DNA of 64,000 nucleotides, taken from Kineosporia corallincola (GTDB lineage: Bacteria; Actinomycetota; Actinomycetes; Actinomycetales; Kineosporiaceae). Position 1 is the first letter of the stretch. Each line of letters starts with the position of its first letter. Below, piece by piece: positions 38,052 through 64,000 of this stretch. The position numbers were made by a program, and so were the translations under genes. The stretch covers positions 310,001 through 374,000 of the forward strand of contig NZ_JAHBAY010000004.1 of assembly GCF_018499875.1 (NCBI RefSeq). Reading direction: 5' to 3'. The notes under the pieces were generated by a model. The model was given only the letters and a program-made list of their open reading frames with translations, did no database searches and was not told the DNA's origin.

Positions 38052-39398
38052 TCACAGCAGCTGGATGTCTTCCGGGTCCTGTCCGGTCTGCACCACGGCC
38101 TCGGCGATCAGCCGGACCTTGACGTTGCGGTGCTGCGACGCGGTGACCAGGCGGCGGAACGCCTCGTCCGGCAGGATGCGGTGGCGTTCCACCAGCACGC
38201 CGACCGCCTCGCCGATGTGCTGACGGGTGCGCATGGCCACCTGGAGGTGCTCCTCCCGCTGCATCCGGTGCAGGGCAACGGCACCCTGCACCGCTACCAG
38301 CGGCGCCACGCTGCGCACGGCCGGGCCGAAGGCGTCCGGGTGGGCGGAGTACAGGCTCAGCACACCGAGCGGCTGTTCGCCGTAGCTGAGCGGCACCGCC
38401 AGCACCCGGCGGATGTCGGCACGGGCCGCCGCGGTGACCAGACGCGGCCACTGGGAGGTCTTCTCGGGGATCGTGGCGACCACGGTGGCGTGGTTGCGCA
38501 CGGCGTTCGCCGCCGGGCCCTCGGCCCGCCCGTGCTCACCCGCCAGTTGCGCGCGTTCGCAGGCCAGCGCGGCGTCGTCACTGCCGGCCGCCACTTCGGT
38601 GCCGTCACGCCGGCACAAGGTGATCGCGGCCCGCTGCGCCCCGGGGACGATCGAGATCGCTCCCTCCAGAATGCCTTTCAGCACCCCGTCGAGGTCGGTG
38701 CAACCGGCCAGCTGCCCGGCCATCGAGGTCAGCGACTCGGCCAGCGCGATGGACAGCTGGCCCGGGCGGTCCACGGGGAACGACGCCCGGTCCGGCTCGT
38801 CGGCCGGCGGGGCGTCGGTGACCACTCGTAGTGGGCGGTCGGGCGTCTTCAGGTCGGGACGCAGCTCCCAGCGCAGCACCGGCGCCCCGGTGCGGACGTC
38901 GGTGGCCGTGGTGACGGCGATGACCACCGGTCGCGGTTCCCCGCCGGGCAGGCGCAGCATGCCCTGGTCGGCGGCGCTGCCGTCCTGGCGGGCCCGCACG
39001 CACCGCTGCATGCGGCCGATCAGGTTGCGCACCCGGCCCCGGTCGGCGACCTCGAACCAGAGGGCGATCGGCCGCGTGGGACGGTCGGCCCGGCGCCGGA
39101 TCAGCTGGTCGGCGGCGGTGTTGGTGCGCCGCACCCCGCCGTCGAGATCGGTGATCACCCGGGCGTGCGGGGACGCCTGGAAGTACGACTCGTTCTCGGC
39201 GATGCTCGCCGTCAGACGGCGCGAGACGTCGTCCAGCTCTTCTTGCTGCACCCGCAGTTCCTCGTCGGCCAGCTGCATGCGCTCGGCCAGATCGCGCAGG
39301 TCGTCGGCGTGTGGATCGCTCTCGCCCAGCTCCAGCAGACGGGTGCGCCGCACCGTGAGATCGGCCAGAAAGGCATGCAGTTCTGGTGCTGAGGTCAT
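38052..39398 (-). CDS. PAS-GAF-ANTAR sensor/antiterminator, distal gene of the Che module
   Basis: A 448-residue soluble regulator. A short coiled coil (about 15-70, ERMQLADEELRVQQEELDDV) is followed by PAS (about 75-190, SPHARVITDLDGGVRRTNTA), GAF (about 225-385, ending VAPLVAVQGAVAL) and ANTAR (about 393-448: MRTRQHIGEAVGVLVERHRI, then AFRRLVTASQHRNVK). ANTAR domains bind paired RNA hairpins and prevent transcription termination. No receiver domain is present, so the signal would enter through PAS/GAF. ATG 39398 follows GGGGAGC. It is separated from the upstream CheR gene by 139 bp and may have its own promoter. Confidence 0.88.
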   Translation of the reverse strand: MTSAPELHAFLADLTVRRTRLLELGESDPHADDLRDLAERMQLADEELRVQQEELDDVSRRLTASIAENESYFQASPHARVITDLDGGVRRTNTAADQLIRRRADRPTRPIALWFEVADRGRVRNLIGRMQRCVRARQDGSAADQGMLRLPGGEPRPVVIAVTTATDVRTGAPVLRWELRPDLKTPDRPLRVVTDAPPADEPDRASFPVDRPGQLSIALAESLTSMAGQLAGCTDLDGVLKGILEGAISIVPGAQRAAITLCRRDGTEVAAGSDDAALACERAQLAGEHGRAEGPAANAVRNHATVVATIPEKTSQWPRLVTAAARADIRRVLAVPLSYGEQPLGVLSLYSAHPDAFGPAVRSVAPLVAVQGAVALHRMQREEHLQVAMRTRQHIGEAVGVLVERHRILPDEAFRRLVTASQHRNVKVRLIAEAVVQTGQDPEDIQLL

Positions 39399-39537
39399 CG
39401 GGTGCTCCCCGCGTCCGTGAGCCACCGTCCGTCTGCCGCTGTCTCGACCGTGAACGGTGCACCGGAGATCAACGCTAGGTCCGACTCGCCGGTCCGTCCA
39501 GGCGAGCACGCTGTGCCCCCGCATCAGTCGTGGACGT

Positions 39538-41414
<1,877 letters not shown>

Positions 41415-41418
<4 letters not shown>

Positions 41419-42458
41419 GCGCTTTCCGTGGACTCGGACTGTTCGGCGTGGTCACCGGCCCGCCCGGCACCGGGATTCGCGAGCAGTGTCCGGCGGATCA
41501 GGGCTGCGGCCTCGCGGGCCTCCGCGGCCTGCTCGGCGAATCGGCGGGCCACCAGGGGCTGATCGTGGGTCCTGGCCCGGGTGCTCATGTTGTCGGCCAG
41601 CGATGCCTTCTCCTCCAGCGACCGCAGGCCCATCCAGAGCGCGCCCTCCAGCGCGGCGTCGGTCTCGGCCAGCAGGCTCTCGGCCGACCAGGCGTGCCCG
41701 GTGAGGCACCGGTAGCGGACATAGCCGGCCTCGTCGATCGCGAACAGCGGCCCGTGGCAGTCGGGACAGGTCAGCCCGGCGGGATTGCTCTGGTAGTGCT
41801 GGCGCCCGGCAGCGCGGGACGAGCCGTGCCGGGCGATCTCGACCTCCTCGCCGAGCGGGTCGCCCGGCGCGGGGGTGGGCACCTCGCCCACCTCCGCGCC
41901 GACCAGTCCGGTCAGGGTGGCCGGGATGGCATCGAGCGGCAGTACGTGCTCCGGGTCCGCGGCGGCGATCGCGTTGGCCGGCATCCCCGGTTGCGCGGCG
42001 TCCAGCGGGTCCTGCACGATCGCGACACCGCCGCGGGCGCGCACCGAGACCAGACCGGCCGAGCCGTCGTCCAGCGCCCCGGACAGCACGACGCCCACCA
42101 CGCGCGGGCCGAGAACCCTTGCCGCGGAACGGAACAGCACGTCCACGGCGGGCCGGTGACCGTTCTCCCGCGGGCCCCGGGTGAGGATCACCCGGTCGTC
42201 CACCACCAGCAGATGATGGTCGGGCCGGGCGACGATGACCGACCCGCGCTCGAAGGGCGTCTCGCCCTCCGCCGCCACCACCTTGAGCGCGGTGACCCGG
42301 CTCAGGATGGTGGCCAGGGCATTCACGCCGGTGGCCGGGGTGTGCAGCACCACCAGCACGCAGGCCGGCAGATCGGCCGGCAGGGGGGACAGCAATCTGG
42401 TGATCGCCTCGACCCCGCCGGCGCTCGCACCGACGACCACCACGTCACGCTGGGCCAC
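41415..42458 (-). CDS. CheB-type methylesterase without receiver domain
   Basis: A 347-residue protein. The CheB catalytic domain is about 4-190: the nucleophile serine in VVGASAGGVEAI (Ser12), His39 (VVLHTP) and Asp130-131 (SGALDDGSAG). There is no N-terminal response-regulator domain, so it is not switched by CheA phosphorylation in the classical way. A C-terminal part (about 230-347) has a possible zinc ribbon (TCPDCHGPLF, then RYRCLTGHAWS) and a helical tail, as in CheB proteins associated with CheR-PAS. GTG 42458 follows GGAGG. It overlaps the CheR start (ATGA), so the two opposing enzymes are made together. Confidence 0.9.
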
Positions 42459-42518
42459 GTGACAACCTCCGTCTGTTGATCGGTATCCACGTTTCTGGCA
42501 GAAGCCGATCAAGCGACC

Positions 42519-43880
42519 CTAGTGCATGGGCGGACGGCCCTTGACGGCCTCGTCGACGAACTCGGCGGCCAGGTCGCGGATCTTGCGGTTGCTGTCGTTG
42601 CTCATCTTGACCAGCACGGCGAACGCCTCCTCGGCGGAGCACTGCCGGGTCAGCATGATCATCCCCTTGGCCTGGTCGATGACGGCGCGCGACGACAGTG
42701 CCTCCCGCAGTTGCTCCTGCACCTGGCGGATCTCCTGCATCGTGCGGACATCACGCACCAGCGTGCCGGCCGCCGCCACGAACGGGGCGGCCTGCCCGGC
42801 CGTCTCCTCGGTGAAGTCCTGCCCGGCGGCGTAGAGCACGAGCACACCGGCGGTCCGTTCCTCCAGCACCAGGGGCAGGGCCAGCCAGCTGCCCGGACCC
42901 TCACCGCTGCCCGTTCCGCTCCCGGCCGCTCGGTGCAGGGCCGGCCAGCGCGGGTCATCGAGCGGGTCGTGGGTGAGCACCGGTTCGCCGCTGGTGAAGG
43001 CGTCGAAGACCGGACCGGCCGCGTTCATGTACTGCACCCCGTCGGCGGCCTGGGCCGACGGCGAGGTGGAGACGATGGTGGCCGGGTCGGACGGGTCGCC
43101 GATCACGATCGACGCGGCCTGCGCCCCCGGGGTGGCGCGGGTGGCCAGCTCTGCCACGCGCCGCAGCAGCGTGCCCAGGTCGGCGTCGCCGACGCCGAGC
43201 CGCGACAGTTCCACCAGCATCTGGCGGTACAGCTCGTCGGCCGAGGCCGCGTCGGGGGCGACGGGTTGCAGCACCCACTGCACCGGCTCCCGGTCACCGG
43301 CTCGTTCGGCGGGCCAGTGAGTGACGACGACCTGGCAGGTCACCGGCTCGCCCTCGCGCGGGGTCAGGGTGATCGTGGCGATGGTCGCCTCACCCCGGAG
43401 CTTGACCGCGGCCAGGGCACCGCGTGCGGTGCGCCGGTCGGCGACGTCGATGAAGGCGAACACCGGCTTGTGCCGCTCCAGCGCCCGCATCGGCACCCGC
43501 AGCAGCTCCTCGGCCGCCGGGTTGGCCTCGACGATCGCGCCCTCGCGGTCGGTGGTGAGCACCGCGATCGGCAGCGAGCCGAGCAGCCGGCGGGTCAGGG
43601 CCCTGCCCTGCCGCTGGGCCTGCGCCGCGCTCTCCACCTCGGCCAGCTGTGCGGTCAGCTCCTCCTCGGCGAGCACCAGGTCTTCCGCGACCCGGGTCAT
43701 CGTCTCGGGCGACAGCGGCTCCCCGGCCACGGCCGACTGGCCGAACAGCGTCTCCTGGGCGGAGCGCAGCATGATCAGCGCCTCACCGAGTGCCTGACCC
43801 GGGTCCCCGCTGGTGGGCGTGTCTTCTGAGAGGACGACGGACGGCTGCTGATGGTCGGCGATCGTGTGGTTGTTCGGCAT
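42519..43880 (-). CDS. PAS-GAF-ANTAR sensor/antiterminator, proximal gene of the Che module
   Basis: A 453-residue regulator with the same domain order as the gene at 38052: an N-terminal coil (about 30-90, SAQETLFGQSAVAG and LAEEELTAQLAEVESAAQ), PAS about 95-210 (LPIAVLTTDREGAIVEANPA), GAF about 220-390 and ANTAR about 395-453 (SSRAVIDQAKGMIMLTRQCS then AEEAFAVLVKMSNDSNRK). It is the most upstream gene of the CheB-CheR cluster, 60 bp before the CheB start. The canonical ANTAR residues suggest RNA binding. No receiver domain. Its targets could be this operon or distant ones. Confidence 0.9.
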   Translation of the reverse strand: MPNNHTIADHQQPSVVLSEDTPTSGDPGQALGEALIMLRSAQETLFGQSAVAGEPLSPETMTRVAEDLVLAEEELTAQLAEVESAAQAQRQGRALTRRLLGSLPIAVLTTDREGAIVEANPAAEELLRVPMRALERHKPVFAFIDVADRRTARGALAAVKLRGEATIATITLTPREGEPVTCQVVVTHWPAERAGDREPVQWVLQPVAPDAASADELYRQMLVELSRLGVGDADLGTLLRRVAELATRATPGAQAASIVIGDPSDPATIVSTSPSAQAADGVQYMNAAGPVFDAFTSGEPVLTHDPLDDPRWPALHRAAGSGTGSGEGPGSWLALPLVLEERTAGVLVLYAAGQDFTEETAGQAAPFVAAAGTLVRDVRTMQEIRQVQEQLREALSSRAVIDQAKGMIMLTRQCSAEEAFAVLVKMSNDSNRKIRDLAAEFVDEAVKGRPPMH

Positions 43881-52713: not shown

Positions 52714-52814
52714 ATCTCACGACGCTACCCGGGTCCGGAAATACCGGCGAGTGAGGATGTAAAAGGGGCCGGGAAGAGATGCGGCTCCCGAAAGTGCGTG
52801 AGAAGTTGCCGATC

Positions 52815-54458
52815 ATGCGAGTCATCGGGGTGAACGCGATATTTCATGATCCCTCAGCGGCTCTGGTGATCGACGGGCAGACCGTCGCCGCCGCCGAGGA
52901 GGAACGCTTCAGCCGTCGCAAGCACGGCAAGCGCCCGGTTCCCTTCTCCGCCTGGGAACTGCCCGAACTGAGCCTGCGCTGGTGCCTGGCCGAGGCCGGG
53001 CTGAAACCTTCCGACATCGACGTGGTGGCCTACTCGTTCGACCCGGCCCTCGCCGAGCCCGTCGCCGGCGACCCCTGGGACCACCTGCGTCTCACCTATG
53101 CCGAACGGGCCCCGCACTTCCTCGCCAGTGCCCTGCCCGGCCTGGATCCGGAGCAGGTGCGCTTCGTGCCGCACCACGTGGCGCACGCCGCCTCGGCCGG
53201 ACTGGCCTCACCGCACGGTGACTGCTCGGTGCTGGTGCTCGACGGGCGCGGCGAACGCGCCTCGCACCTGGCCGGGCGCTACCGCAACGGCCACCTGGAC
53301 ACCCTCGCCGCACAGGCGCTGCCGCACTCCCTCGGCCTGGTCTACGAATCACTGACCGAACACCTCGGATTCCTGCGCTCCAGCGACGAGTTCAAGGTGA
53401 TGGCCCTCGCCTCCTACGGAAAACCGCGCTGGCTGGAAGAAATGCGCGAGCTGATCCGCGCCGACGGCGAGGGCGGCTTCGTCGCGCCCACCCTGGACTG
53501 GAACCGCTGGGCGCCGCCGCGCGTGGACGACGGCAGCTGGGGCGGCGAGCACGCCGACCTGGCCGCCAGCGTGCAGGCCCGGCTGGAGGAGGTGCTGGTC
53601 GACCTGGCCACCTGGCTGCACGCACAGACCGGCGACCGGGTGCTCACGATGGCCGGCGGCACCGCGCTGAACTGCGTCGCCAACAGCCGGATCTGGCGGG
53701 AGAGCCCGTTCGAGGAGGTCTGGGTGCAGCCCGCCGCCGGCGACGCCGGCACCTCGCTGGGCGCGGCCCTCCAGGTCAGCGCCGACGGCGGCGAGGTGCC
53801 CGCGCCGATGCCCACGGCCGCCCTCGGCCGGTCGTGGACGGACGACGAACTGGCGGCCTGGTTGCGCCGCGCCGCCGTGCCCTTCACCACCCCGCCCGAC
53901 CTGGCCGGCGAGGTGGCCGACGTGCTGGCACGCAACGGCGTCATCGCCTGGTTCGACGGTCGCAGCGAGTACGGCCCGCGGGCCCTGGGCCGGCGCTCGC
54001 TGATCGCCAACCCCACCGTCGCCGACAACCTGGAACGGCTCAACGACGTGAAGGGGCGTGAGCAGTTCCGCCCGGTCGCCCCGATGGTGCTCGCCGACCG
54101 CGCCCCGGAGATCTTCTCCGGCGGCCCGATCCCCAGTCCGTACATGCTTTTCGTCCACGACGTGGCACCGGCCTGGCGCGACCGGATCCCGGCCGTGGTG
54201 CACGTCGACGGCACCGCCCGGATCCAGACGGTGGACGACGCGACGAATCCCGGCATCGCCGGCCTGCTCCGGGCGTTCGAGCGGCGCACCGGGGTGCCGG
54301 TGGTGATCAACACCAGCCTGAACACGGCCGGCCGGCCGATGGTCGACGACCCCCGCGACGCCCTGGAGCTGTTCGGCTCGGCGCCGGTGGACCTGCTGGT
54401 GCTGGGGCCGCACCTGGTCCGGCGCTCGCAGATGACCGGGGCGGGGGCACCGGCATGA
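52815..54458 (+). CDS. Carbamoyltransferase, NodU/TobZ family
   Basis: A 547-residue enzyme that transfers a carbamoyl group from carbamoyl phosphate via carbamoyl adenylate to a hydroxyl group. The Kae1-like N-domain begins MRVIGVNAIFHDPSAALV and contains the metal-binding histidines in HHVAHAASAG, plus VMALASYG and GGTALNCVANS. The YrdC-like C-domain has EYGPRALGRRSL and DVKGREQFRPVAP. ATG 52815 matches the family start; ATG 52779 in frame would add 12 residues. It is the first gene of the coupled glycan operon, and the overlap with the next gene (ATGA) suggests it decorates the sugar or glycan made there. Confidence 0.93.
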   Translation: MRVIGVNAIFHDPSAALVIDGQTVAAAEEERFSRRKHGKRPVPFSAWELPELSLRWCLAEAGLKPSDIDVVAYSFDPALAEPVAGDPWDHLRLTYAERAPHFLASALPGLDPEQVRFVPHHVAHAASAGLASPHGDCSVLVLDGRGERASHLAGRYRNGHLDTLAAQALPHSLGLVYESLTEHLGFLRSSDEFKVMALASYGKPRWLEEMRELIRADGEGGFVAPTLDWNRWAPPRVDDGSWGGEHADLAASVQARLEEVLVDLATWLHAQTGDRVLTMAGGTALNCVANSRIWRESPFEEVWVQPAAGDAGTSLGAALQVSADGGEVPAPMPTAALGRSWTDDELAAWLRRAAVPFTTPPDLAGEVADVLARNGVIAWFDGRSEYGPRALGRRSLIANPTVADNLERLNDVKGREQFRPVAPMVLADRAPEIFSGGPIPSPYMLFVHDVAPAWRDRIPAVVHVDGTARIQTVDDATNPGIAGLLRAFERRTGVPVVINTSLNTAGRPMVDDPRDALELFGSAPVDLLVLGPHLVRRSQMTGAGAPA

Positions 54459-56089
54459 CCGGCCCGCACGACTACGCCGTCGTGGTCCCGAGCATCGGCC
54501 GTCCCAGCCTGTACCGGCTGCTGGAGACCCTGGCCGGGCAGGCCGGCCCCCGCCCGGCCGAGCTGGTGGTGGTGGACGACCGGCCCGCACCGCCGGGGGC
54601 GAGTGCCGCGGCGTCCCCCATTGTTCTTGCCGCACTGCCCTTTCCGACGCGTGTCGTGCGCACGCAGGGACGCGGCCCGGCGGCCGCCCGCAACGCCGGA
54701 TGGCGTTGTACCAGCGCGCCCTGGGTGGTGTTCCTCGACGACGACGTGGAACTGCTGCCGCACTGGGCGCAGGCACTGGCCGAGGACCTGCGGGCGGTTC
54801 CGGCCGACGGGGCGGGCAGCCAGGCCCAGTTGCACGTGCCGCTGCCGGGGCACCGCCGCCCGACCGACTGGGAACGGGGGACGGCGGGTCTCCAGGACGC
54901 CGCCTGGGCCACGGCCGACATGGCCTACCGCCGGTCCGCGCTGGAGCAGGTGCACGGTTTCGACGAGCGCTTCCCCCGGGCCTACCGGGAGGACGCCGAC
55001 CTGGCCCTGCGGGTGCTGCGGGCCGGATGGCGGCTGACCCGGGGGGAACGCGTCACCCTGCATCCGGTGCGCCCGGCCGATGACCTGGTCAGCCTGCGGG
55101 CGCAGCGGGGCAACGCCGACGACGTGCTGATGCGGGTGCTGCACGGGCCGGGCTGGCGCGAGGACGGCGACGTGCCGACCGGTGCCTTCCCCCGGCACGT
55201 GGCCACCACGCTGGCCCTGGTGGGAGCCGGTGCGGCGGTGGCGGTGGGCAGGCCGCGGGAGGCGGCGCTGGCCGGGGCCGCCTGGGCGTTCCTGAGCACG
55301 GACTTCCTGCGCCGTCGTCTGCTGCCCGGCCCCCGGCCGGGCGATCCGGAGTTCGGCGCCGAGGCCCGGCGCATGCTGGTGACCAGCCTGGCCATTCCCC
55401 CGGCCGCCGTGGCCCACCGGCTGCGGGGGGCCTGGCGGGTGCGGCGTGGGGCGCCGGCCTGGCCCCCGCCGGTGCGCGCGGTGCTGTTCGACCGCGACGG
55501 CACGCTGGTACGTGACGTGCCCTACAACGGTGACCCGGACCGGGTGAAGCTGATGCCCTTCGCCCGCGAGGCCCTGGACGCGGTGCGGGCGGCCGGGCTG
55601 CGGACCGGGGTGGTGAGCAACCAGTCCGGCGTGGCGCGGGGGCTGCTGACCATCCGGCAGGTGGAGGACGTCAATGCGGAGATCGACCGCCGGCTGGGCG
55701 GACTGGGCGTCTGGCGCTACTGCCCGCACGGCCCGGAGAGCTCCGGTGCGGATTGTGCCTGCCGCAAGCCTGGCCCCGGGCTGGTACTGGCGGCCGCCCG
55801 GGAACTGGGTGTGGAGCCGTACGAGTGCCTGGTGGTCGGTGACATCGGTGCAGACCTGGGGGCCGCCGTGAGCGCCGGGGCCCGGGCGGTGCTGGTGCCG
55901 ACGGCGCAGACCCGTCCGGAGGAGGTGGCCGCCGCACCGGTGGTCGCCGCGGATCTGCTGGAGGCCGTGGGGCTCGCCGTCCGCCTGGCCGGGGGAACCG
56001 GTGAACCTGCCCACCCCGCTCCTGGCCCTGCCCTGGACCCCGCCTCCGGGACGGGCCGCAGCCCGGCAGCCGGTGGGACGCGACGATGA
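54455..56089 (+). CDS. Fusion of GT2 glycosyltransferase and GmhB-type heptose bisphosphatase
   Basis: A 544-residue two-domain protein. Residues 6-230 are a GT-A glycosyltransferase 2: VVPSIGRPSLYRLLETL, the DXD-like VVFLDDDVELL (95-97) and GFDERFPRAYREDADLALRV. A hydrophobic stretch (about 248-285) may be membrane-associated. Residues 340-500 are a HAD-IIIA phosphatase: FDRDGTLVRD (345-354), VVSNQSGVARG and the Zn-binding CPHGPESSGADCACRKPG typical of GmhB, which removes the 7-phosphate of D-glycero-manno-heptose 1,7-bisphosphate. A fusion of pathway enzyme and transferase is unusual. Overlaps both neighbours by 4 bp. Confidence 0.9.
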   Translation: MTGPHDYAVVVPSIGRPSLYRLLETLAGQAGPRPAELVVVDDRPAPPGASAAASPIVLAALPFPTRVVRTQGRGPAAARNAGWRCTSAPWVVFLDDDVELLPHWAQALAEDLRAVPADGAGSQAQLHVPLPGHRRPTDWERGTAGLQDAAWATADMAYRRSALEQVHGFDERFPRAYREDADLALRVLRAGWRLTRGERVTLHPVRPADDLVSLRAQRGNADDVLMRVLHGPGWREDGDVPTGAFPRHVATTLALVGAGAAVAVGRPREAALAGAAWAFLSTDFLRRRLLPGPRPGDPEFGAEARRMLVTSLAIPPAAVAHRLRGAWRVRRGAPAWPPPVRAVLFDRDGTLVRDVPYNGDPDRVKLMPFAREALDAVRAAGLRTGVVSNQSGVARGLLTIRQVEDVNAEIDRRLGGLGVWRYCPHGPESSGADCACRKPGPGLVLAAARELGVEPYECLVVGDIGADLGAAVSAGARAVLVPTAQTRPEEVAAAPVVAADLLEAVGLAVRLAGGTGEPAHPAPGPALDPASGTGRSPAAGGTRR

Positions 56090-57189
56090 CCCGCACCCTG
56101 GCCGTCCGGCTGGACAGCGACGGGGACGTGCTGCTCACCGGCCCGGCCGTGCGGGCGCTGGCGGCCGCGTCCGACCGTCTCGACCTCCTGGTGTCGCCCG
56201 CGGGCCGGGCGGCGGCCGGACTGCTGCCCGGCGTGGACCGGCTGACGGTCTTCGACGTCCCCTGGTCCGGATTCCGGCCCGCAGCGGTGAATCCGGCCGC
56301 GATCAGTGCCCTGGTCGTCGACATGACCCACCAGAAGTACGATCTCGCGGTCGTCTTCACCTCGTTCCACCAGAGTCCGCTGCCGATGGCCCTGCTCGCC
56401 CGGATGGCCGGCGTGCCGCGGATCGTGGCCGACAGTGAGGACTACCCGGGGTCACTGCTCGACGTGCGGCACCGACGGCAGGAGGTGCACGAGGTCGAGG
56501 CCGCGCTCCAGCTGGCGACGGCGGCCGGGGCGCCGGCCACCGATGATTCCCGGCTGCGCGTCTCGATCCCGCCGGGCACCGGGAACCCGGCCGGCGGAAG
56601 TGGTTACGTGGTGCTGCACCCGGGGGCCTCGGTGCCGTCGCGAGGGCTGCTGCCGGCGCACGCCCACCGGATCGCGGCGGAACTCGTGGCGCGCGGGCAC
56701 CGGGTGGTGATCACCGGCGGCCCGCAGGAGGTCGAGCTCGCCGCAGCGGCGTATGCTCCTGGATGTACCGATCTGGCGGGCCGCACCGATCTGGCGGAAC
56801 TGGCCGCCGTGCTGCGCGCCGCGGCCTGCGTGGTCACCGGCAACACCGGCCCCGCGCACCTGGCGGCCGCCGTGGGAACCCCCGTGGTGTCACTGTTCTC
56901 GCCCGTCGTGCCGGCAGGCCGCTGGGCCCCCTACGGAGTACCGGTCGTGCTGCTCGGCGACCAGCAGGCTCCCTGTGCCGGCAGCCGCGCCCGTGAGTGC
57001 CCGGTTCCCGGCCATCCCTGCCTCAGCGGCGTCAGTGCGGCCGAGGTGGCCCGAGCAGTAGAACGTTTCGCCGGACCGATCGAGAACACGGTCTCCGCCG
57101 GTGACAGTGACTCTGTCATGGAGACCGATGCCGAACATACTGATCTGGCACGTCCACGGTTCGTGGATGACGTCGTTCGTCCAGGGTGA
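56086..57189 (+). CDS. GT9 family (heptosyltransferase-like) glycosyltransferase, copy 1
   Basis: A 367-residue GT-B enzyme of family 9, whose best known members are the LPS heptosyltransferases that use ADP-heptose. The start is LAVRLDSDGDVLLTGPAVRA. The nucleotide-sugar loop is VVLHPGASVPSRGL (canonical HPGA), followed by VVITGGPQE and the C-terminal VVTGNTGPAHLAAAVGTPVV. The Lys of the usual HPGA-x-x-x-K is changed. Its final 62 bp overlap the next gene, an unusually long overlap, and the overlapping tail after residue about 325 is not family-like. Probably adds heptose to a surface or secreted acceptor. Confidence 0.88.
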   Translation: MTRTLAVRLDSDGDVLLTGPAVRALAAASDRLDLLVSPAGRAAAGLLPGVDRLTVFDVPWSGFRPAAVNPAAISALVVDMTHQKYDLAVVFTSFHQSPLPMALLARMAGVPRIVADSEDYPGSLLDVRHRRQEVHEVEAALQLATAAGAPATDDSRLRVSIPPGTGNPAGGSGYVVLHPGASVPSRGLLPAHAHRIAAELVARGHRVVITGGPQEVELAAAAYAPGCTDLAGRTDLAELAAVLRAAACVVTGNTGPAHLAAAVGTPVVSLFSPVVPAGRWAPYGVPVVLLGDQQAPCAGSRARECPVPGHPCLSGVSAAEVARAVERFAGPIENTVSAGDSDSVMETDAEHTDLARPRFVDDVVRPG

Positions 57190-58090
57190 CCACACCTATC
57201 TGATTCCCGTCCTGCCCGGCCGGGGCCCCGACGGCCGGGGCCGCGCCCGCACCTGGGACTGGCCCCCGAACGCCCGCGAGGTGACGCCGGCCGAACTCGC
57301 CGGCCTGCCGATCGACCTGGTCGTGCTGCAACGCCCGCACGAACTGAAACTCACCCGGGAGTGGACCGGAAGACGACCGGGGACAGACGTTCCCGCCGTG
57401 TACGTCGAGCACAACACCCCGTCCGGCCCGGCCGTGTCGTCGATGCACCCGCTGGCCGGGCACGACGACGTCCCGCTGGTGCACGTCACCCGGTTCAACG
57501 AGATGGCCTGGGACAACGGTCTCGCCCCGACCCGGGTGGTGGAGCACGGCATCGTGGATCCGGGGTACCTGTACACCGGGGACGACGCGTCGGTGGCCGT
57601 GGTCGTCAACGAGCCGGTACGCCGCGCCCGGGTGGCCGGCACCGACCTGGTCGCCCGGGTCGCGGCCGAGGTGCCGGTGGACGTGTACGGCATGGGCGTG
57701 GAACAGTTGCCCGATCACATTCCGGACGTCAAAGGCCGTGTGCACGAAGATGTTCCGCAGGCCGAGCTGCACCGGATGCTCGGGAGGCACCGGCTGTACC
57801 TGCACCCCTACCGGTGGACCAGCCTGGGCCTGTCACTGATCGAGGCGATGACCCTCGGCATGCCGGTGCTGGCTCTGGCCACCACCGAGGCCCCGGTGGC
57901 CGTACCGCCCGGTGCCGGGGTGGTCAGCAACGACCTGAGGGTGCTCACCGCCACCGCCCGGCGCTGGCTGGCGGATCCCCAGGAAGCCCGCGAGATCGGG
58001 CTGACAGCAAGGCAGTACGCGCTCAGTCGCTACGGGTTGGACCGCAGCCTCGCCGACTGGGACGCGATCGTGAAGGAGATGCTCCGATGA
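57128..58090 (+). CDS. GT-B glycosyltransferase (group 1-like)
   Basis: A 320-residue glycosyltransferase. It opens MPNILIWHVHGSWMTSFVQG and then a non-typical N-domain to about 110 (VVLQRPHELKL, VYVEHNTPSGPA). RVVEHGIVDPGYLYTGD marks the domain boundary. The C-domain ends with the group-1 E-x(7)-E zone RWTSLGLSLIEAMTLGMPVLALATTEAP. ATG 57128 lies inside the end of the preceding gene (62-bp overlap); a longer GTG-started form from 57101 is less likely. It overlaps the following GT4 by 4 bp. Donor sugar unknown. Confidence 0.83.
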   Translation: MPNILIWHVHGSWMTSFVQGDHTYLIPVLPGRGPDGRGRARTWDWPPNAREVTPAELAGLPIDLVVLQRPHELKLTREWTGRRPGTDVPAVYVEHNTPSGPAVSSMHPLAGHDDVPLVHVTRFNEMAWDNGLAPTRVVEHGIVDPGYLYTGDDASVAVVVNEPVRRARVAGTDLVARVAAEVPVDVYGMGVEQLPDHIPDVKGRVHEDVPQAELHRMLGRHRLYLHPYRWTSLGLSLIEAMTLGMPVLALATTEAPVAVPPGAGVVSNDLRVLTATARRWLADPQEAREIGLTARQYALSRYGLDRSLADWDAIVKEMLR

Positions 58091-59328
58091 GGATCGGCAT
58101 GATTTCCGAGCACGCCAGCCCTCTGGCCGCGCTCGGCGGGCAGGACGCCGGTGGGCAGAACGTCTACGTCGCCTCCCTGGCCCGGGCCCTGGCGGCACGT
58201 GGCCACGAGGTCGCCGTGTACACCCGGCGTGACGACCCTTACCTGCCCGACGTCGTCGAGATGGTTCCGGGCGTCACCGTGGTGCATGTGCCGGCCGGCC
58301 CGGCCCGGGTGCTGCCGAAGGACGAGATGCTGCGCTGGATGCCGGACTTCGGCCGGTGGCTGGCCGAGACCTGGCTGCTCGGCGCGGCCGGGCGGCCGGA
58401 CGTGCTGCACGCCAACTTCTGGATGTCCGGCGTCGCCGCGCTGACCGCGAACCAGCTCGTGCCCGGGCGGCGGATCCCGCTGGTGCAGACCTTCCACGCC
58501 CTGGGCTCGGTGAAGCGCCGGTTCCAGGGGGCACGTGACACCAGCCCGGCCCGGCGGATCGCGGTGGAGCGGATGCTGGCCGAGACCGCCGACCTGGTGC
58601 TGGCCACCTGCTCGGACGAGGTGGCCGAGCTGCACCGGGCCGGGGCGGCCCGGTGTCACGTGCGGGTCGTGCCGTGCGGGGTGGACGTGGAGCGGTTCGC
58701 GCCGGAAGGCAGCACGCACACGCCGGTTCCGAGCAGCCCTGGTGTGCTGAACCTGGTCTGCGTGGGAAGGCTGGTGCCGCGCAAGGGGATAGACACCGTG
58801 GTGGACGCCCTGCCGCGGGTGCCGGGTGCCCGGCTGGTGGTGGTCGGCGGGCCGGAAGCCTCCGGCCTGCACCACGATCCAGAGGCACGACGTCTGCTCG
58901 ACCGGGCCCGGCGGCACGGGGTGGCCGACCGGGTGGAGCTCACCGGCGCCGTCGGGCAGGACCGTCTGCCCGGACTGCTGCGCCGGGCGGACGTCGTGGT
59001 GGCCACGCCCTGGTACGAGCCGTTCGGCATCGTTCCGCTGGAGGCGATGGCCGTCGGGCGTCCCCTGGTCGGCAGCGCGGTGGGCGGGCTGCTCGACACC
59101 GTGAAAGACGGTGAGACCGGCATTCTCGTGCCGCCCCGCGATCCGGGTGCCCTGGCGGCGGCACTGCGCCGGCTGGCCGGTGACGAAGAACTGCGCGCCC
59201 GGATGGGGCGGGCGGCGCGCCGCCGGGCCGAGCGGCACTACGGCTGGAGCCGGGTGGCCGAACAGGTGGAGGAGGCCTACCGGAGCGTGGCCGCCCACGA
59301 CCGGGTGCCCGCCCTGGAGGCGCTGTGA
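58087..59328 (+). CDS. GT4 family glycosyltransferase
   Basis: A 413-residue GT-B retaining glycosyltransferase. The acceptor-side motif GGQDAGGQNVYVASLARALA (about 18-37) is close to the one in sucrose-phosphate-synthase-like and MshA-type enzymes. LVCVGRLVPRKGIDTVVDAL starts the donor domain and ATPWYEPFGIVPLEAMAVGR contains the E-x(7)-E donor motif. The frame extends to 57361 but ATG 58087, overlapping the upstream stop (ATGA), is clearly the family start. It is one of four glycosyltransferases in this operon, implying an oligosaccharide of several residues. Confidence 0.92.
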   Translation: MRIGMISEHASPLAALGGQDAGGQNVYVASLARALAARGHEVAVYTRRDDPYLPDVVEMVPGVTVVHVPAGPARVLPKDEMLRWMPDFGRWLAETWLLGAAGRPDVLHANFWMSGVAALTANQLVPGRRIPLVQTFHALGSVKRRFQGARDTSPARRIAVERMLAETADLVLATCSDEVAELHRAGAARCHVRVVPCGVDVERFAPEGSTHTPVPSSPGVLNLVCVGRLVPRKGIDTVVDALPRVPGARLVVVGGPEASGLHHDPEARRLLDRARRHGVADRVELTGAVGQDRLPGLLRRADVVVATPWYEPFGIVPLEAMAVGRPLVGSAVGGLLDTVKDGETGILVPPRDPGALAAALRRLAGDEELRARMGRAARRRAERHYGWSRVAEQVEEAYRSVAAHDRVPALEAL

Positions 59329-59969
59329 CCGCCGGCCTGCGGGTGGTCCCCGCCCCGCCGGCCCCGCCGCAGCAGCCGGTCACCTGGATCGACCGGCACC
59401 TGGAAGACCTTGCCCCGGGCCTGGTCTCGCTGCGCCGGCAGGGCCCGCTGCTGGACTCCTGGGGACGCCGCCTGGCCGGGGTGTTCGGGTCCGGTGGACG
59501 GCTGCTGGTGGCTGGGAACGGCGGAAGTGCCGCCGAGGCACAGCATCTCACCGCCGAGCTGGTGGGCCGGTTCGTGGGCGAGCGGCGCCCGCTGTCGGCC
59601 CTCTGCCTGAGTGCCGAGACCTCCAGCCTGACCGCGCTGGTCAACGACTACGGCATCGGCGAGATGTTCGCCCGGCAGGTGCAGGCCCACGGCCGTACGG
59701 GTGACGTGCTGATGCTGCTCTCCACCAGTGGCCGCAGCCCGAACCTGCTCGCCGCCGCCGAACGTGCCGCGCAGCAGGGCATCTCGGTCTGGGCGCTGAC
59801 CGGCCCGGACGGCAGCCCGCTGGCGGCGGCGGCCGACGAGGCCGTCTGCGTGGATTCGGACAGCACGTCCGCCGTGCAGGAGGTGCACCTGATGGCGGTG
59901 CACGCGATCTGTGCCGCGCTGGACGCCCAGCTGCGCGGTGCCGTGCCGGAGCGGGTGGGCTCCCGATGA
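59325..59969 (+). CDS. gmhA: Phosphoheptose isomerase (GmhA-like)
   Basis: A 214-residue SIS-domain isomerase that converts sedoheptulose 7-phosphate to D-glycero-D-manno-heptose 7-phosphate, the first step of ADP-heptose synthesis. GNGGSAAEAQHLTAELVGRF (64-83) and LSTSGRSPNLLAAAE (132-146) are near copies of the enterobacterial motifs, and the C-terminal SAVQEVHLMAVHAICAALD carries the conserved Gln-Glu and His. The first 20 residues are Pro-rich and variable. The start is GTG 59325, overlapping the GT4 stop. It pairs with the HldE gene immediately downstream. Confidence 0.92.
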   Translation: MTAGLRVVPAPPAPPQQPVTWIDRHLEDLAPGLVSLRRQGPLLDSWGRRLAGVFGSGGRLLVAGNGGSAAEAQHLTAELVGRFVGERRPLSALCLSAETSSLTALVNDYGIGEMFARQVQAHGRTGDVLMLLSTSGRSPNLLAAAERAAQQGISVWALTGPDGSPLAAAADEAVCVDSDSTSAVQEVHLMAVHAICAALDAQLRGAVPERVGSR

Positions 59970-61369
59970 CGCGCCACGTCGTCGTGCTCGGTGATCTGCT
60001 GCTCGACCGTGACGTGCACGGAAGCGTCACCCGGATCGCCCCGGACGCCCCGGTGCCGGTGCTCGACGCCTCGCGCACGGCCGAACGCCCGGGTGGCGCC
60101 GGGCTGACGGCCCTGCTGTGCGTGGGCGAGGGCGTGCGGGTCACCCTGGTGGCGCCGGTCGCCGACGACCACGACGGACGACGTCTGCGCGACCTCCTCG
60201 CGCCCCATGTCCGCCTGCTGGCCCTCGGGCACGAAGGGGGGACACGCACCAGGACCCGGTTGCGGGCCTCCGGGCAGTGCCTGCTGCGACTGGACGAGGG
60301 CGGTCCGGGCACGCCGGTGCCGGACTCCGTGGACCGGGTGGACGAGGTGCTGGAGTCCGCCGACGTGGTGCTGGTCTCGGACTACGGCGCCGGTGTCACC
60401 CGGCATCCGGAACTGCGCGAGCTGCTCGTCCGCGCCGCCGCCCGGCGGCCGGTGCTCTGGGACCCGCACCCGCGCGGCGGCGACCCGGTGCCGGGGTGCC
60501 TGCTGGTGACGCCGAATCTGGCCGAGGCCGAGGGTGCGCTGAGAGCGGCGGGGGAGCCGGCCGGGACCGGGGTGACGCCCGACGTGCTGGCCACCCGGTT
60601 GCGGGAGCGGTGGCGGGTGCGGGGTGTGTGCGTCACGGCCGGGGAGGCGGGGGCCCACCTGTCACGGACCGGCAGCGAGACGCTGTACGTGCCGGCCCGG
60701 CCGGCCGCCGGGGATCCGTGCGGTGCCGGGGACCGGTTCGCCGCCTCGGTGGCGGTGGGACTGGCCGGTGGCCGGGTGCTGTCCGAAGCGGTGACCGCCG
60801 CGGTGGGGGACGCGTCGGCCTGGGTGGAGGCTGGTGGCACAGCCGGTTTCGCCGTCGGGTCCACGCCGGCGCGTGAGGCCGGCGCCACCGGCCGTGGCCC
60901 GGGCCTGGAGGCGAAGCTCGCCGCGACCCGCGCCGCGGGCGGCCGGGTCGTCGCCACCGGAGGCTGTTTCGATCTCCTGCACGTGGGCCATCTCTCCTGC
61001 CTGCGGGCCGCCCGCCGGGCCGGGGACCTGCTGGTCGTGCTGCTGAACTCGGACGCCTCGGTGTCCAGACTGAAAGGCCCGGGCCGGCCGGTGGTTCCGC
61101 AGAACGAGCGGGCCGAGGTGCTGAGGTCCCTGGAATGCGTCGACGACGTGGTCATTTTCGACGAGGACGACCCGGGGGCGGCGCTGGAACGGCTCCGCCC
61201 GGACGTCTGGGTGAAGGGTGGCGACTACGGCGGCGCCCCGATGCCCGAGGCCGGCCTGGTACGGAGCTGGGGCGGGCGGGTGCTGTTGCTGCCCTACCTG
61301 AGTGGCCGCTCCACCACCGCCATGCTGGATCGCGCGGAGCGCGACCACGAACTGGAGGAGATCCGATGA
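59966..61369 (+). CDS. hldE: Bifunctional heptose-7-phosphate kinase / heptose-1-phosphate adenylyltransferase (HldE-like)
   Basis: A 467-residue fusion. Residues 1-300 are a PfkB kinase making heptose 1,7-bisphosphate: APVPVLDASRTAERPGGAG (motif 1; the usual Asn of GGAANVA is not present) and GDPCGAGDRFAASVAVGLAG (about 249-268). Residues about 325-467 are a cytidylyltransferase-fold domain: GGCFDLLHVGHLSCLRAAR (HxGH at 339-342), LNSDASVSRLKGPGRP and VWVKGGDY. Together with GmhA, the GmhB domain of the GT2 fusion and this protein, all steps from sedoheptulose 7-phosphate to ADP-D-glycero-beta-D-manno-heptose are present. Overlaps its neighbours by 4 bp. Confidence 0.93.
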   Translation: MTRHVVVLGDLLLDRDVHGSVTRIAPDAPVPVLDASRTAERPGGAGLTALLCVGEGVRVTLVAPVADDHDGRRLRDLLAPHVRLLALGHEGGTRTRTRLRASGQCLLRLDEGGPGTPVPDSVDRVDEVLESADVVLVSDYGAGVTRHPELRELLVRAAARRPVLWDPHPRGGDPVPGCLLVTPNLAEAEGALRAAGEPAGTGVTPDVLATRLRERWRVRGVCVTAGEAGAHLSRTGSETLYVPARPAAGDPCGAGDRFAASVAVGLAGGRVLSEAVTAAVGDASAWVEAGGTAGFAVGSTPAREAGATGRGPGLEAKLAATRAAGGRVVATGGCFDLLHVGHLSCLRAARRAGDLLVVLLNSDASVSRLKGPGRPVVPQNERAEVLRSLECVDDVVIFDEDDPGAALERLRPDVWVKGGDYGGAPMPEAGLVRSWGGRVLLLPYLSGRSTTAMLDRAERDHELEEIR

Positions 61370-62067
61370 GCATTCAGAACCGTCCGGTGGGAACCGTCTT
61401 CGTCAGCGGCGGGGCCGGTGGCCTGGGAGCGGCGGTGGTCGCGGCTGTGCGGGAGGCCGGCGGCACGCCCGCCGTCATCGACCTGGTCGCCCCGAAGGAC
61501 GACGTGGTGGCACACGCCGTGGCCGATCTGTCCGACACCACCGAGGCGGAGAACGCGGTGGCCGCGCTGATCGGGAAGGTGGGCCCGCCCGACGCAGTGG
61601 TCACCTGTGCCGGCACCGACGCCTGCGGCCCGCTCGACGGCGTCGACAGCCAGACCTGGGAACGGGTGGTGCGGGTGAACTTGTTCGGCACCGTCGCCCT
61701 GGTGCGGGCCTGCCTGCCCCACCTCAAGCAGAACCACGGCACCGTGGTCACGGTCGCCTCCACCCTCGGCATCAAGGCCGTCGGCGACGCGACCGCCTAC
61801 TGCGCATCGAAATTCGGCGTCGTCGGCTTCACCCGGTCGCTGGCCGCCGAGCTGGCCGGGCAGGTCGGCGTGACCCTGCTGATCCCGGGCGGCATGAGCA
61901 CGGCCTTCTTCGACGGTCGCACGGAGCAGTACCGGCCGGGCCCCGACGCCGTCCTCAATGACCCGGCACACACCGCCCAGGCCGTGCTCACCGTGCTGTC
62001 GCAACCACCCGGCAGCGAGATCCGGGAACTGGTGGTGGCCACGTCCACCGAGCCGTCCTGGCCGTGA
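61366..62067 (+). CDS. Short-chain dehydrogenase in the heptose operon
   Basis: A 233-residue classical SDR. The NAD-binding motif is FVSGGAGGLGAAVVAAVREA (residues about 12-31), with an aspartate at the end of beta-2 (VIDLVAP) suggesting NAD. TCAGTDA, the catalytic VASTLG serine and YCASKFGVVGF (Tyr and Lys) are intact. It is not the HldD epimerase, which is an extended SDR of about 310 residues. It could oxidise or reduce a sugar carbon before transfer. Coupled to HldE and the second GT9 by 4-bp overlaps. Confidence 0.85.
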   Translation: MSIQNRPVGTVFVSGGAGGLGAAVVAAVREAGGTPAVIDLVAPKDDVVAHAVADLSDTTEAENAVAALIGKVGPPDAVVTCAGTDACGPLDGVDSQTWERVVRVNLFGTVALVRACLPHLKQNHGTVVTVASTLGIKAVGDATAYCASKFGVVGFTRSLAAELAGQVGVTLLIPGGMSTAFFDGRTEQYRPGPDAVLNDPAHTAQAVLTVLSQPPGSEIRELVVATSTEPSWP

Positions 62068-63074
62068 CCACCGGGAATGTGCTCATCCTGCGGGCTCTCG
62101 GGCTGGGTGACGCCCTCACCGGTGTCCCCGCCCTGAGGGGCCTGCGGCGGCGGTACCCGGATGCGCGGCTGACGTTGCTGGCGCCGTCCACCATCGGGTC
62201 GTGGTTGCGGGAACTCGGGCTGGTGGACGCCGTGGTGGACGCCCGGGGCCCGCACCGTCCGGTGCGGGTGGACGGGCGTCCCACGGTTGCCGTGAACCTG
62301 CACGGCAGCGGTCCCGAGAGTCACCGGTTACTCATGTCCTCGGAGCCGGACCGGCTGGTCGCCTTCGCCACCCCGGAGTTCCCGGACGGGCCGGCCTGGG
62401 ACCACGGCCCGGAGCACGAGGTGGATCGCTGGTGCCGTCTGGTGCGTGCGGACGGCGGTGGCTGCGACCGCTCCGACCTGTTCCTGAACCCGAGGGCGGT
62501 GATGCATCTCGGCGGTTCGCGCGGCACCCTGGGCATCGAGACCTGGTGTCTCGGCGAGCATGTCGTGATTCATCCGGGCGCGGCCTCGGGCAGCAGGCGC
62601 TGGCCCGCGCGGCGGTGGGCGGCGGTCGCGCGGCATCTGGCGCGGGCCGGGGCGCGGGTGGTGCTGACCGGATCGGTGGACGAGAAGCCGCTCTGCCACG
62701 AGATCGCGACGCTGTCCGGGGCGAGCTCACCGGCCGGAACCGGGCCGACCGACCTGGCCGGCCGTTCCACCCTGCCCGAGCTGGCCGCCCTGATCGCCTC
62801 GGCCCGCCTGCTGATCTGTGGCGACACCGGCGTCGCCCATGTCGCCACGGCCGTCGGCACGCCCTCGGTGCTGCTGTTCGGCCCGACCTCGCCCCGGCTC
62901 TGGGGCCCGGCCCTGCGCCCCGGCCTGCACCAGGTGCTGTGGCACGGCTCGGACGAGGCCCCCGGCGACCCGCACGGCACCCGGCCCGACCCGGCCCTGC
63001 TCGCCGTCCAGCCGCCCGAGGTGGTCGCCGCAGCCCTGCCCCGGCTGGCGGGGACGGTCACCGCACCACGGTGA
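62064..63074 (+). CDS. GT9 family (heptosyltransferase-like) glycosyltransferase, copy 2
   Basis: A 336-residue family 9 transferase: NVLILRALGLGDALTGVPAL at the start, the donor-binding VVIHPGAASGSRRWPARRWA, VVLTGSVDEKPL and LLICGDTGVAHVATAVGTPSV followed by LFGPTSPRLWGP. It differs clearly from copy 1, so the two probably act on different acceptors. The start is GTG 62064 in the SDR stop. Its last 17 bp overlap the convergent decarboxylase/epimerase gene, with no room for a terminator between. Confidence 0.9.
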   Translation: MTTGNVLILRALGLGDALTGVPALRGLRRRYPDARLTLLAPSTIGSWLRELGLVDAVVDARGPHRPVRVDGRPTVAVNLHGSGPESHRLLMSSEPDRLVAFATPEFPDGPAWDHGPEHEVDRWCRLVRADGGGCDRSDLFLNPRAVMHLGGSRGTLGIETWCLGEHVVIHPGAASGSRRWPARRWAAVARHLARAGARVVLTGSVDEKPLCHEIATLSGASSPAGTGPTDLAGRSTLPELAALIASARLLICGDTGVAHVATAVGTPSVLLFGPTSPRLWGPALRPGLHQVLWHGSDEAPGDPHGTRPDPALLAVQPPEVVAAALPRLAGTVTAPR

Positions 63075-63999: not shown

Positions 64000-64000
64000 G

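Follow-up and report, generated by a model that had tools for sequence, protein, structure and literature searches.

A homologue of the Streptomyces cwg operon in Kineosporia corallincola that probably makes a heptose-bearing, carbamoylated envelope oligosaccharide

We analyzed a 64,000-nucleotide stretch of the genome of the actinobacterium Kineosporia corallincola (NCBI RefSeq assembly GCF_018499875.1, contig NZ_JAHBAY010000004.1, positions 310,001 to 374,000; hereafter the window), and found that the nine-gene operon at positions 52815 to 63074 is, by gene content and order, a homologue of the cwg (cell wall glycan) operon SCO6179-SCO6190 of Streptomyces coelicolor. This actinobacterial cwg operon probably makes a heptose-bearing, carbamoylated oligosaccharide for the cell envelope. 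The original prediction had put the locus forward as its best candidate for an undescribed system, while doubting whether homologous operons were already described in Streptomyces; they are, as cwg, and the product there is a predicted one. In the excerpts of the literature considered here, the S. coelicolor operon was described in 2002 as a sigma-E target (Hong 2002, as cited by later papers), and vancomycin induces it, partly via sigma-E (Tran 2019, PMC6767563). A table in PMC5839063 labels SCO6180-6188 as cwg genes (SCO6184 not being shown), and the same paper gives cwgH (SCO6186) as a putative phosphoheptose isomerase and cwgI (SCO6187) as bifunctional; cwgE (SCO6183) is annotated in S. 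coelicolor as a putative heptosyl transferase.

Open reading frame (ORF) calls and Pfam matches confirmed nine plus-strand genes of the families named originally. The first encodes an O-carbamoyltransferase of the NodU/CmcH type (52815-54458; PF02543 and PF16861; alternative in-frame ATG start at 52779), the cwgB homologue, with 71% identity to its counterpart downstream of the published cwg promoter. It is followed by a GT2 glycosyltransferase fused to a GmhB-type HAD phosphatase (54455-56089; PF00535, with NF006506 and TIGR00213 below cut-off), which corresponds to cwgC plus cwgD, and by the heptosyltransferase-like GT9a (56086-57189; PF01075, E = 6e-24; 58% identity in the cwg operon at locus L177), the cwgE homologue. 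Two further glycosyltransferases, the GT4-like GT4a (57128-58090; PF13524/PF00534; cwgF homologue and operon marker in this analysis) and the MshA-like GT4b (58087-59328; TIGR03449, E = 1.4e-76, below cut-off; cwgG homologue), precede the predicted sedoheptulose 7-phosphate isomerase GmhA (59325-59969; cwgH homologue), whose best NCBIfam matches, below cut-off, are phosphoheptose isomerases, and HldE, a predicted heptose 7-phosphate kinase/heptose 1-phosphate nucleotidyltransferase (59966-61369; NF008454, E = 1.4e-78, near full length and below cut-off; cwgI homologue). A short-chain dehydrogenase/reductase (SDR; 61366-62067; PF00106), for which no counterpart was found in the L177 operon, and the heptosyltransferase-like GT9b (62064-63074; PF01075, E = 8e-29; cwgJ homologue) complete the series. 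Past 63074 lies a tenth cluster member, a convergent minus-strand gene for a cwgA-type NAD-dependent nucleotide-sugar epimerase/dehydratase (63058-64203, the window ending at 64000; PF01370/PF16363; 63% identity to the cwgA-type gene of locus L044). Seven of the eight junctions within the operon are 4-bp ATGA or GTGA overlaps and the eighth, GT9a/GT4a, is 62 bp, which bears out the tight coupling first described. The Pfam names stand for broad families; GmhA, HldE and GmhB are narrower assignments taken from the best NCBIfam matches, which fall under the curated equivalog cut-offs.

The reference operon was reached through its published promoter and not through an accession. Twenty-six bases of the S. 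coelicolor cwg promoter were compared with 392 genomes of one genus group (that of genome G145, which we take to be Streptomyces), and four genomes matched, one of them exactly (G538). About 0.2 kb 3' of the promoter in G538, tblastn (which places genes without calling ORFs) located cwgA, carbamoyltransferase, GT2, GmhB, GT9, GT4, GT4, GmhA, HldE (two domains), GT9, cwgK and cwgL. Queries from the window found their parts of this operon at 46 to 71% identity, while A, K and L were found with L044 queries instead. Eight of the nine window genes, all but the SDR, thus match nine of the twelve cwg genes in order, from cwgB to cwgJ with C and D fused. Since the published cwg promoter is followed by the same genes in the same order (carbamoyltransferase, GT2, GmhB, GT9, GT4, GT4, GmhA, HldE, GT9), and homologues of cwgA to cwgJ are present, we conclude that the window operon is a cwg homologue. 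It differs in that GT2 and GmhB are fused where the S. coelicolor type has separate genes, in the extra SDR after HldE, and in a cwgA that stands convergent and downstream, whereas the reference cwgA stands first; all three traits recur in other genera. Of the other three promoter-matching genomes, the one examined (G435, locus L178) carries the cwg promoter with one mismatch before a seemingly shrunken operon, in which GT2, a GmhB fragment and GT4b were the parts found. When plasmid records were searched with the didomain HldE, related gene sets turned up on Streptomyces, Nonomuraea and Arthrobacter replicons; that on plasmid p65_CHABEC of Streptomyces sp. CA-256286 reads epimerase, carbamoyltransferase, glycosyltransferase, HAD hydrolase, GT9, two glycosyltransferases, SIS, rfaE2, GT9 and two glycosyltransferases.

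We searched the gene order in actinobacterial genomes, a check proposed with the original prediction. A GT4a alignment scan over 84,980 species yielded at least 575 relatives, and the best 80 loci were kept for comparison; because they were chosen for closeness to the GT4a group of the window itself, their counts may overstate conservation across all relatives. The identical core order, carbamoyltransferase-GT2-GmhB-GT9-GT4-GT4-GmhA-HldE, was kept in 54 of these 80 loci, spread over ten named families and some unnamed ones, which argues that the arrangement is not due to chance. In 21 of the 54 the core is followed by the SDR and then GT9b, as in the window. In ten further loci, all from Streptosporangiaceae, GmhB and GT4a run on the opposite strand, and in the other 16 the operon is truncated by a contig end, rearranged or incomplete. 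We rejected the possibility that only this genome fuses GT2 and GmhB: of 83 loci given, both domains were found in 72, and 30 of these have the fusion. Across the class, 296 genomes were scanned; GT4a was detected in 72 and the HldE nucleotidyltransferase domain in 69 (both at E ≤ 1e-40): 67 genomes had both, 5 GT4a alone, 2 HldE alone and 222 neither, counted per genome irrespective of adjacency and on sequences related by descent, so that a Fisher test of these counts does not rest on independent events. At E ≤ 1e-3 the nucleotidyltransferase domain family was found in 151 of the 296, the additional matches being weak and presumably other nucleotidyltransferases.

All four heptose-step families are encoded, namely GmhA, the HldE kinase, GmhB (fused to GT2) and the HldE nucleotidyltransferase, and heptose enzymes are the best narrow NCBIfam matches for all four steps. 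Solved heptose enzymes are also the best PDB matches of the isomerase, kinase and phosphatase parts: GmhA matches phosphoheptose isomerases at E of about 1e-37, and the C-terminal part of GT2-GmhB matches D,D-heptose 1,7-bisphosphate phosphatases. HldE retains the motifs GAGD, GGCFDLLHVGH and GRSTT, the last of which occurs in 29 of 49 HldEs compared. The STTR5 motif (F/L)XXGRSTT is reported, in the part of PMC11573728 considered, to mark promiscuous nucleotidyltransferases, its arginine accompanying use of CTP and UTP besides ATP; the window HldE reads YLSGRSTT, with R5 present and Y at the first position instead of F/L. The nearest NCBIfam model for the cwgA homologue is dTDP-glucose 4,6-dehydratase, and the protein, with a score of 50.7, stays below the TIGR02197 cut-off of 274.6. 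An HldD-type ADP-glyceromanno-heptose 6-epimerase was not found at the locus, to which the search was confined. Because the cwgA homologue is nearer to dTDP-glucose 4,6-dehydratase than to HldD, D,D-heptose is the form expected here. Synthesis of nucleoside diphosphate (NDP)-heptose beyond Gram-negative bacteria is established, according to the portions of PMC11461863 and PMC11573728 considered.

Both GT9 proteins score above cut-off for PF01075 and below cut-off for the NCBIfam equivalogs of lipopolysaccharide (LPS) heptosyltransferases. GT9a has weak PDB matches to heptosyltransferase structures, and those of GT9b are heptosyltransferases I and II, the similarity lying in both cases mostly in the C-terminal half, which in GT9 enzymes is the donor-binding half. 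GT4b is best matched by the model for MshA (D-inositol-3-phosphate glycosyltransferase) and, in the PDB, by 6kih and 3c4q/3c48, of which 6kih and 3c48 are presumably sucrose-phosphate synthase and MshA. The solved relatives of the carbamoyltransferase are 7xb6, TobZ and GdmN.

Beyond the gene families, their order and the cwg homology, which are observed, we infer the substrates, donor nucleotide, carbamoylation site, acceptor and envelope location as follows. GmhA, HldE and GmhB would convert sedoheptulose 7-phosphate to NDP-D,D-heptose, and the two GT9 enzymes would transfer the heptose, whose presence in the product is predicted from the enzyme families. GT2, GT4a and GT4b may extend the chain with other sugars in the cytoplasm, on an acceptor that this locus does not encode, while the SDR and the CwgA homologue would supply or modify a further nucleotide sugar. 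The carbamoyltransferase would cap a hydroxyl, plausibly on heptose, and the finished oligosaccharide would pass to the cell envelope. Heptose is suggested as the natural carbamoylation target by analogy with WapO, a putative carbamoyltransferase of the Pseudomonas LPS core that is credited with the carbamoyl group on heptose II (PMC8005017, in part). With the Gram-negative ADP-heptose/LPS core system (GmhA, HldE, GmhB and WaaC/WaaF, and WapO in Pseudomonas) the locus shares the enzyme families and a carbamoyltransferase beside heptose genes; it differs in having no HldD-type gene at the locus and in GT9 similarity that is mostly C-terminal. Monoderm bacteria are not known to have LPS. The pathway from sedoheptulose 7-phosphate, like the role of the two GT9 enzymes and the carbamoylated envelope oligosaccharide of the original prediction, stands as the reading best supported by families and context, with enzymes that fall short of equivalog cut-offs and a product that is deduced.

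Several observations weigh against this interpretation. GmhA, HldE and GmhB all score below their NCBIfam equivalog cut-offs, the GmhB part passes only the broad HAD/histidinol-phosphatase models TIGR01656 and TIGR01662, and the best PDB match of the nucleotidyltransferase part, 5x9q, is named only 'putative cytidylyltransferase'. Homologues of cwgK and cwgL were not found in the window or in the downstream stretch L036, the parts of the genome searched for them. No sigma-E-type promoter (AAC ... CGTCTT) was found within 400 bp of the first gene, by a pattern of little power: among Streptomycetaceae it picked out 10 of 27 operons, with a background rate of 0.175. Inspection by eye of the 25 widest ORF clusters within 10 kb of the 80 loci, with the four widest, apparently antisense ORFs, set aside, revealed no recognizable flippase, polymerase or ligase; without a family-library search of the rest, such genes could be missed. 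The next widest cluster is a polysaccharide pyruvyl transferase (Pfam), at 14 loci from 5 genera. In the portions of the cwg literature considered, the product is a predicted cell wall glycan for S. coelicolor too, no assay of any enzyme of cwg or of the window operon was found, and PMC6767563 does not contain the word 'heptose'. Neither a product structure nor heptose in a cwg product is reported in the parts consulted of PMC5839063, PMC4630627, PMC6767563, PMC13011467, PMC5882110 and PMC3902916, a survey lying outside Tang 2022 and Hong 2002.

The alternative with the best prospects, which we regard as possible though somewhat unlikely, is that the glycan is attached to a lipid, such as an inositol lipid, or to a protein, giving a glycolipid or glycoprotein and not a wall polymer. 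It would fit the MshA model as best match of GT4b, the phosphatidylinositol mannosyltransferases further down the PDB list of this protein, and the lack of a recognized polymerase, flippase or ligase at the locus; however, genes located elsewhere and serving other pathways as well may provide the acceptor, flippase and ligase. That the enzymes act on non-heptose sugar phosphates and build a glycan without heptose appears improbable. The SIS, PfkB, nucleotidyltransferase and HAD families are broad, the cut-offs are missed as described, with the HAD domain passing broad models alone, and the GT9 donor cannot be read from sequence, but the four steps of a single pathway are found at one locus, their best narrow matches being heptose enzymes in NCBIfam and, for three of the activities, in the PDB, two GT9 genes adjoin, and strong HldE and GT4a occur in the same genomes.

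A secreted heptose-bearing natural product of the septacidin or hygromycin B type, the other option raised originally, is likewise improbable, since the core order is kept across ten named families, including Cellulomonas, Georgenia and Kocuria (not known as antibiotic producers), and Pfam shows five glycosyltransferase domains in the operon but no enzymes for building a scaffold. Genes of a nucleoside or other scaffold pathway, such as mark septacidin-type clusters, were not found among the nine genes or the flanking genes examined. The published role of cwg as an envelope-stress target argues in the same direction. What speaks for such a product is that Streptomyces septacidin is built from NDP-heptose (PMC11461863, in part) and that the carbamoyltransferase family works in antibiotic pathways (TobZ, GdmN and the novobiocin enzyme). 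The septacidin-type or tridomain NDP-heptose synthetases share with the window NDP-heptose synthesis in an actinobacterium, while the window has GmhA, a didomain HldE and the GT2-GmhB fusion in a glycan operon. The Streptomyces linear plasmids pFRL3 (L046) and pFRL5 (L041) pair a tridomain HldE with P450, radical SAM and carbamoyltransferase genes, a company which indicates that candidate natural-product heptose loci exist; the two clusters are alike and also contain serine hydroxymethyltransferase, GT9 and GDSL esterase genes.

We compared the locus of this cwg homologue with those of five congeners. At E ≤ 1e-20, GT4a was confined to the window's own genome among 13 of the family, while three of the five congeners (G005, G004 and G002; loci L031, L032 and L033) have gmhA-hldE alone at the same locus. 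The retained pair is flanked by alcohol dehydrogenase (ADH), catalase and SDR genes on one side and by the gene down3 on the other (COX1 in one congener and down2 in another). ADH and down3 lie about 17 kb apart in the window genome, 2.8 to 4.6 kb apart in the three congeners and 1.4 kb apart in G003, where the gap holds a homologue of the window's upstream epimerase and no gmhA-hldE; in G001 no match to the window ADH was found. In a quick maximum likelihood tree without bootstrap, built from 49 hand-picked HldE rows (33 from the named set of 80 loci and 16 more, with L043 a long branch and apparently a second copy), the window and three congener HldEs form one clade (SH-aLRT 99), itself nested in a larger clade (100) that otherwise comprises 23 HldEs from GT4a-found loci. 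Recent import of the operon, which the single GT4a-bearing genome might suggest, is not favored: differential loss fits better because HldE groups with that of the congeners inside the cwg-locus clade and the flanking genes are syntenic. In the simplest reading, an ancestral cwg operon eroded differently in each lineage, and gmhA-hldE was worth keeping without the rest.

The retained pair shows ratios of nonsynonymous to synonymous substitution rates (dN/dS) of 0.16 to 0.28 among congeners, with the HldE motifs intact, and no GmhB-family match was found at E ≤ 1e-10 in the three genomes. It is tempting, yet doubtful, to propose jointly that NDP-heptose from GmhA-HldE has a second, cwg-independent use, for which purifying selection would have preserved the pair in these congeners, and that the cwg product is an LPS-inner-core-like carbamoyl-heptose oligosaccharide in the monoderm envelope of about a quarter of the sampled class genomes. 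Against a second use, gmhA and hldE evolve more quickly than most neighboring genes, so slow decay may be under way; each of the three genomes has one weak GT9 match elsewhere, either a remaining user or nothing; another phosphatase could replace GmhB; and the comparison spans only five congeners.

On the same contig, about 175 kb before the operon, a second heptose-type locus (L037; G000:C4:176000-195900, genes at about 180.8-188.2 kb) encodes a GT9, a pyruvyl transferase-like protein, a polysaccharide flippase-family protein, a GmhA-nucleotidyltransferase fusion (SIS plus CTP_transf_like), a heptose kinase-like protein, a GmhB-type HAD protein and a GT2; this locus appears to be a polysaccharide cluster separate from cwg. 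Elsewhere in the window, at 38052-43880, genes for CheB, CheR-PAS and two GAF-ANTAR proteins are grouped and may form a sensory cassette, a reading suggested by the RNA-binding nature of ANTAR domains.

These results tie cwg to a complete set of heptose-pathway families, with strong HldE found nearly always together with a cwg glycosyltransferase in the genomes of the class, and the predicted cwg product becomes directly testable as carbamoylated heptose in the envelope. If carbamoylated heptose is present there, monoderm actinobacteria would carry an analogue of the LPS inner core. NDP-heptose, which vertebrate ALPK1 detects (PMC11461863, in part), would then be widespread in monoderm actinobacteria.

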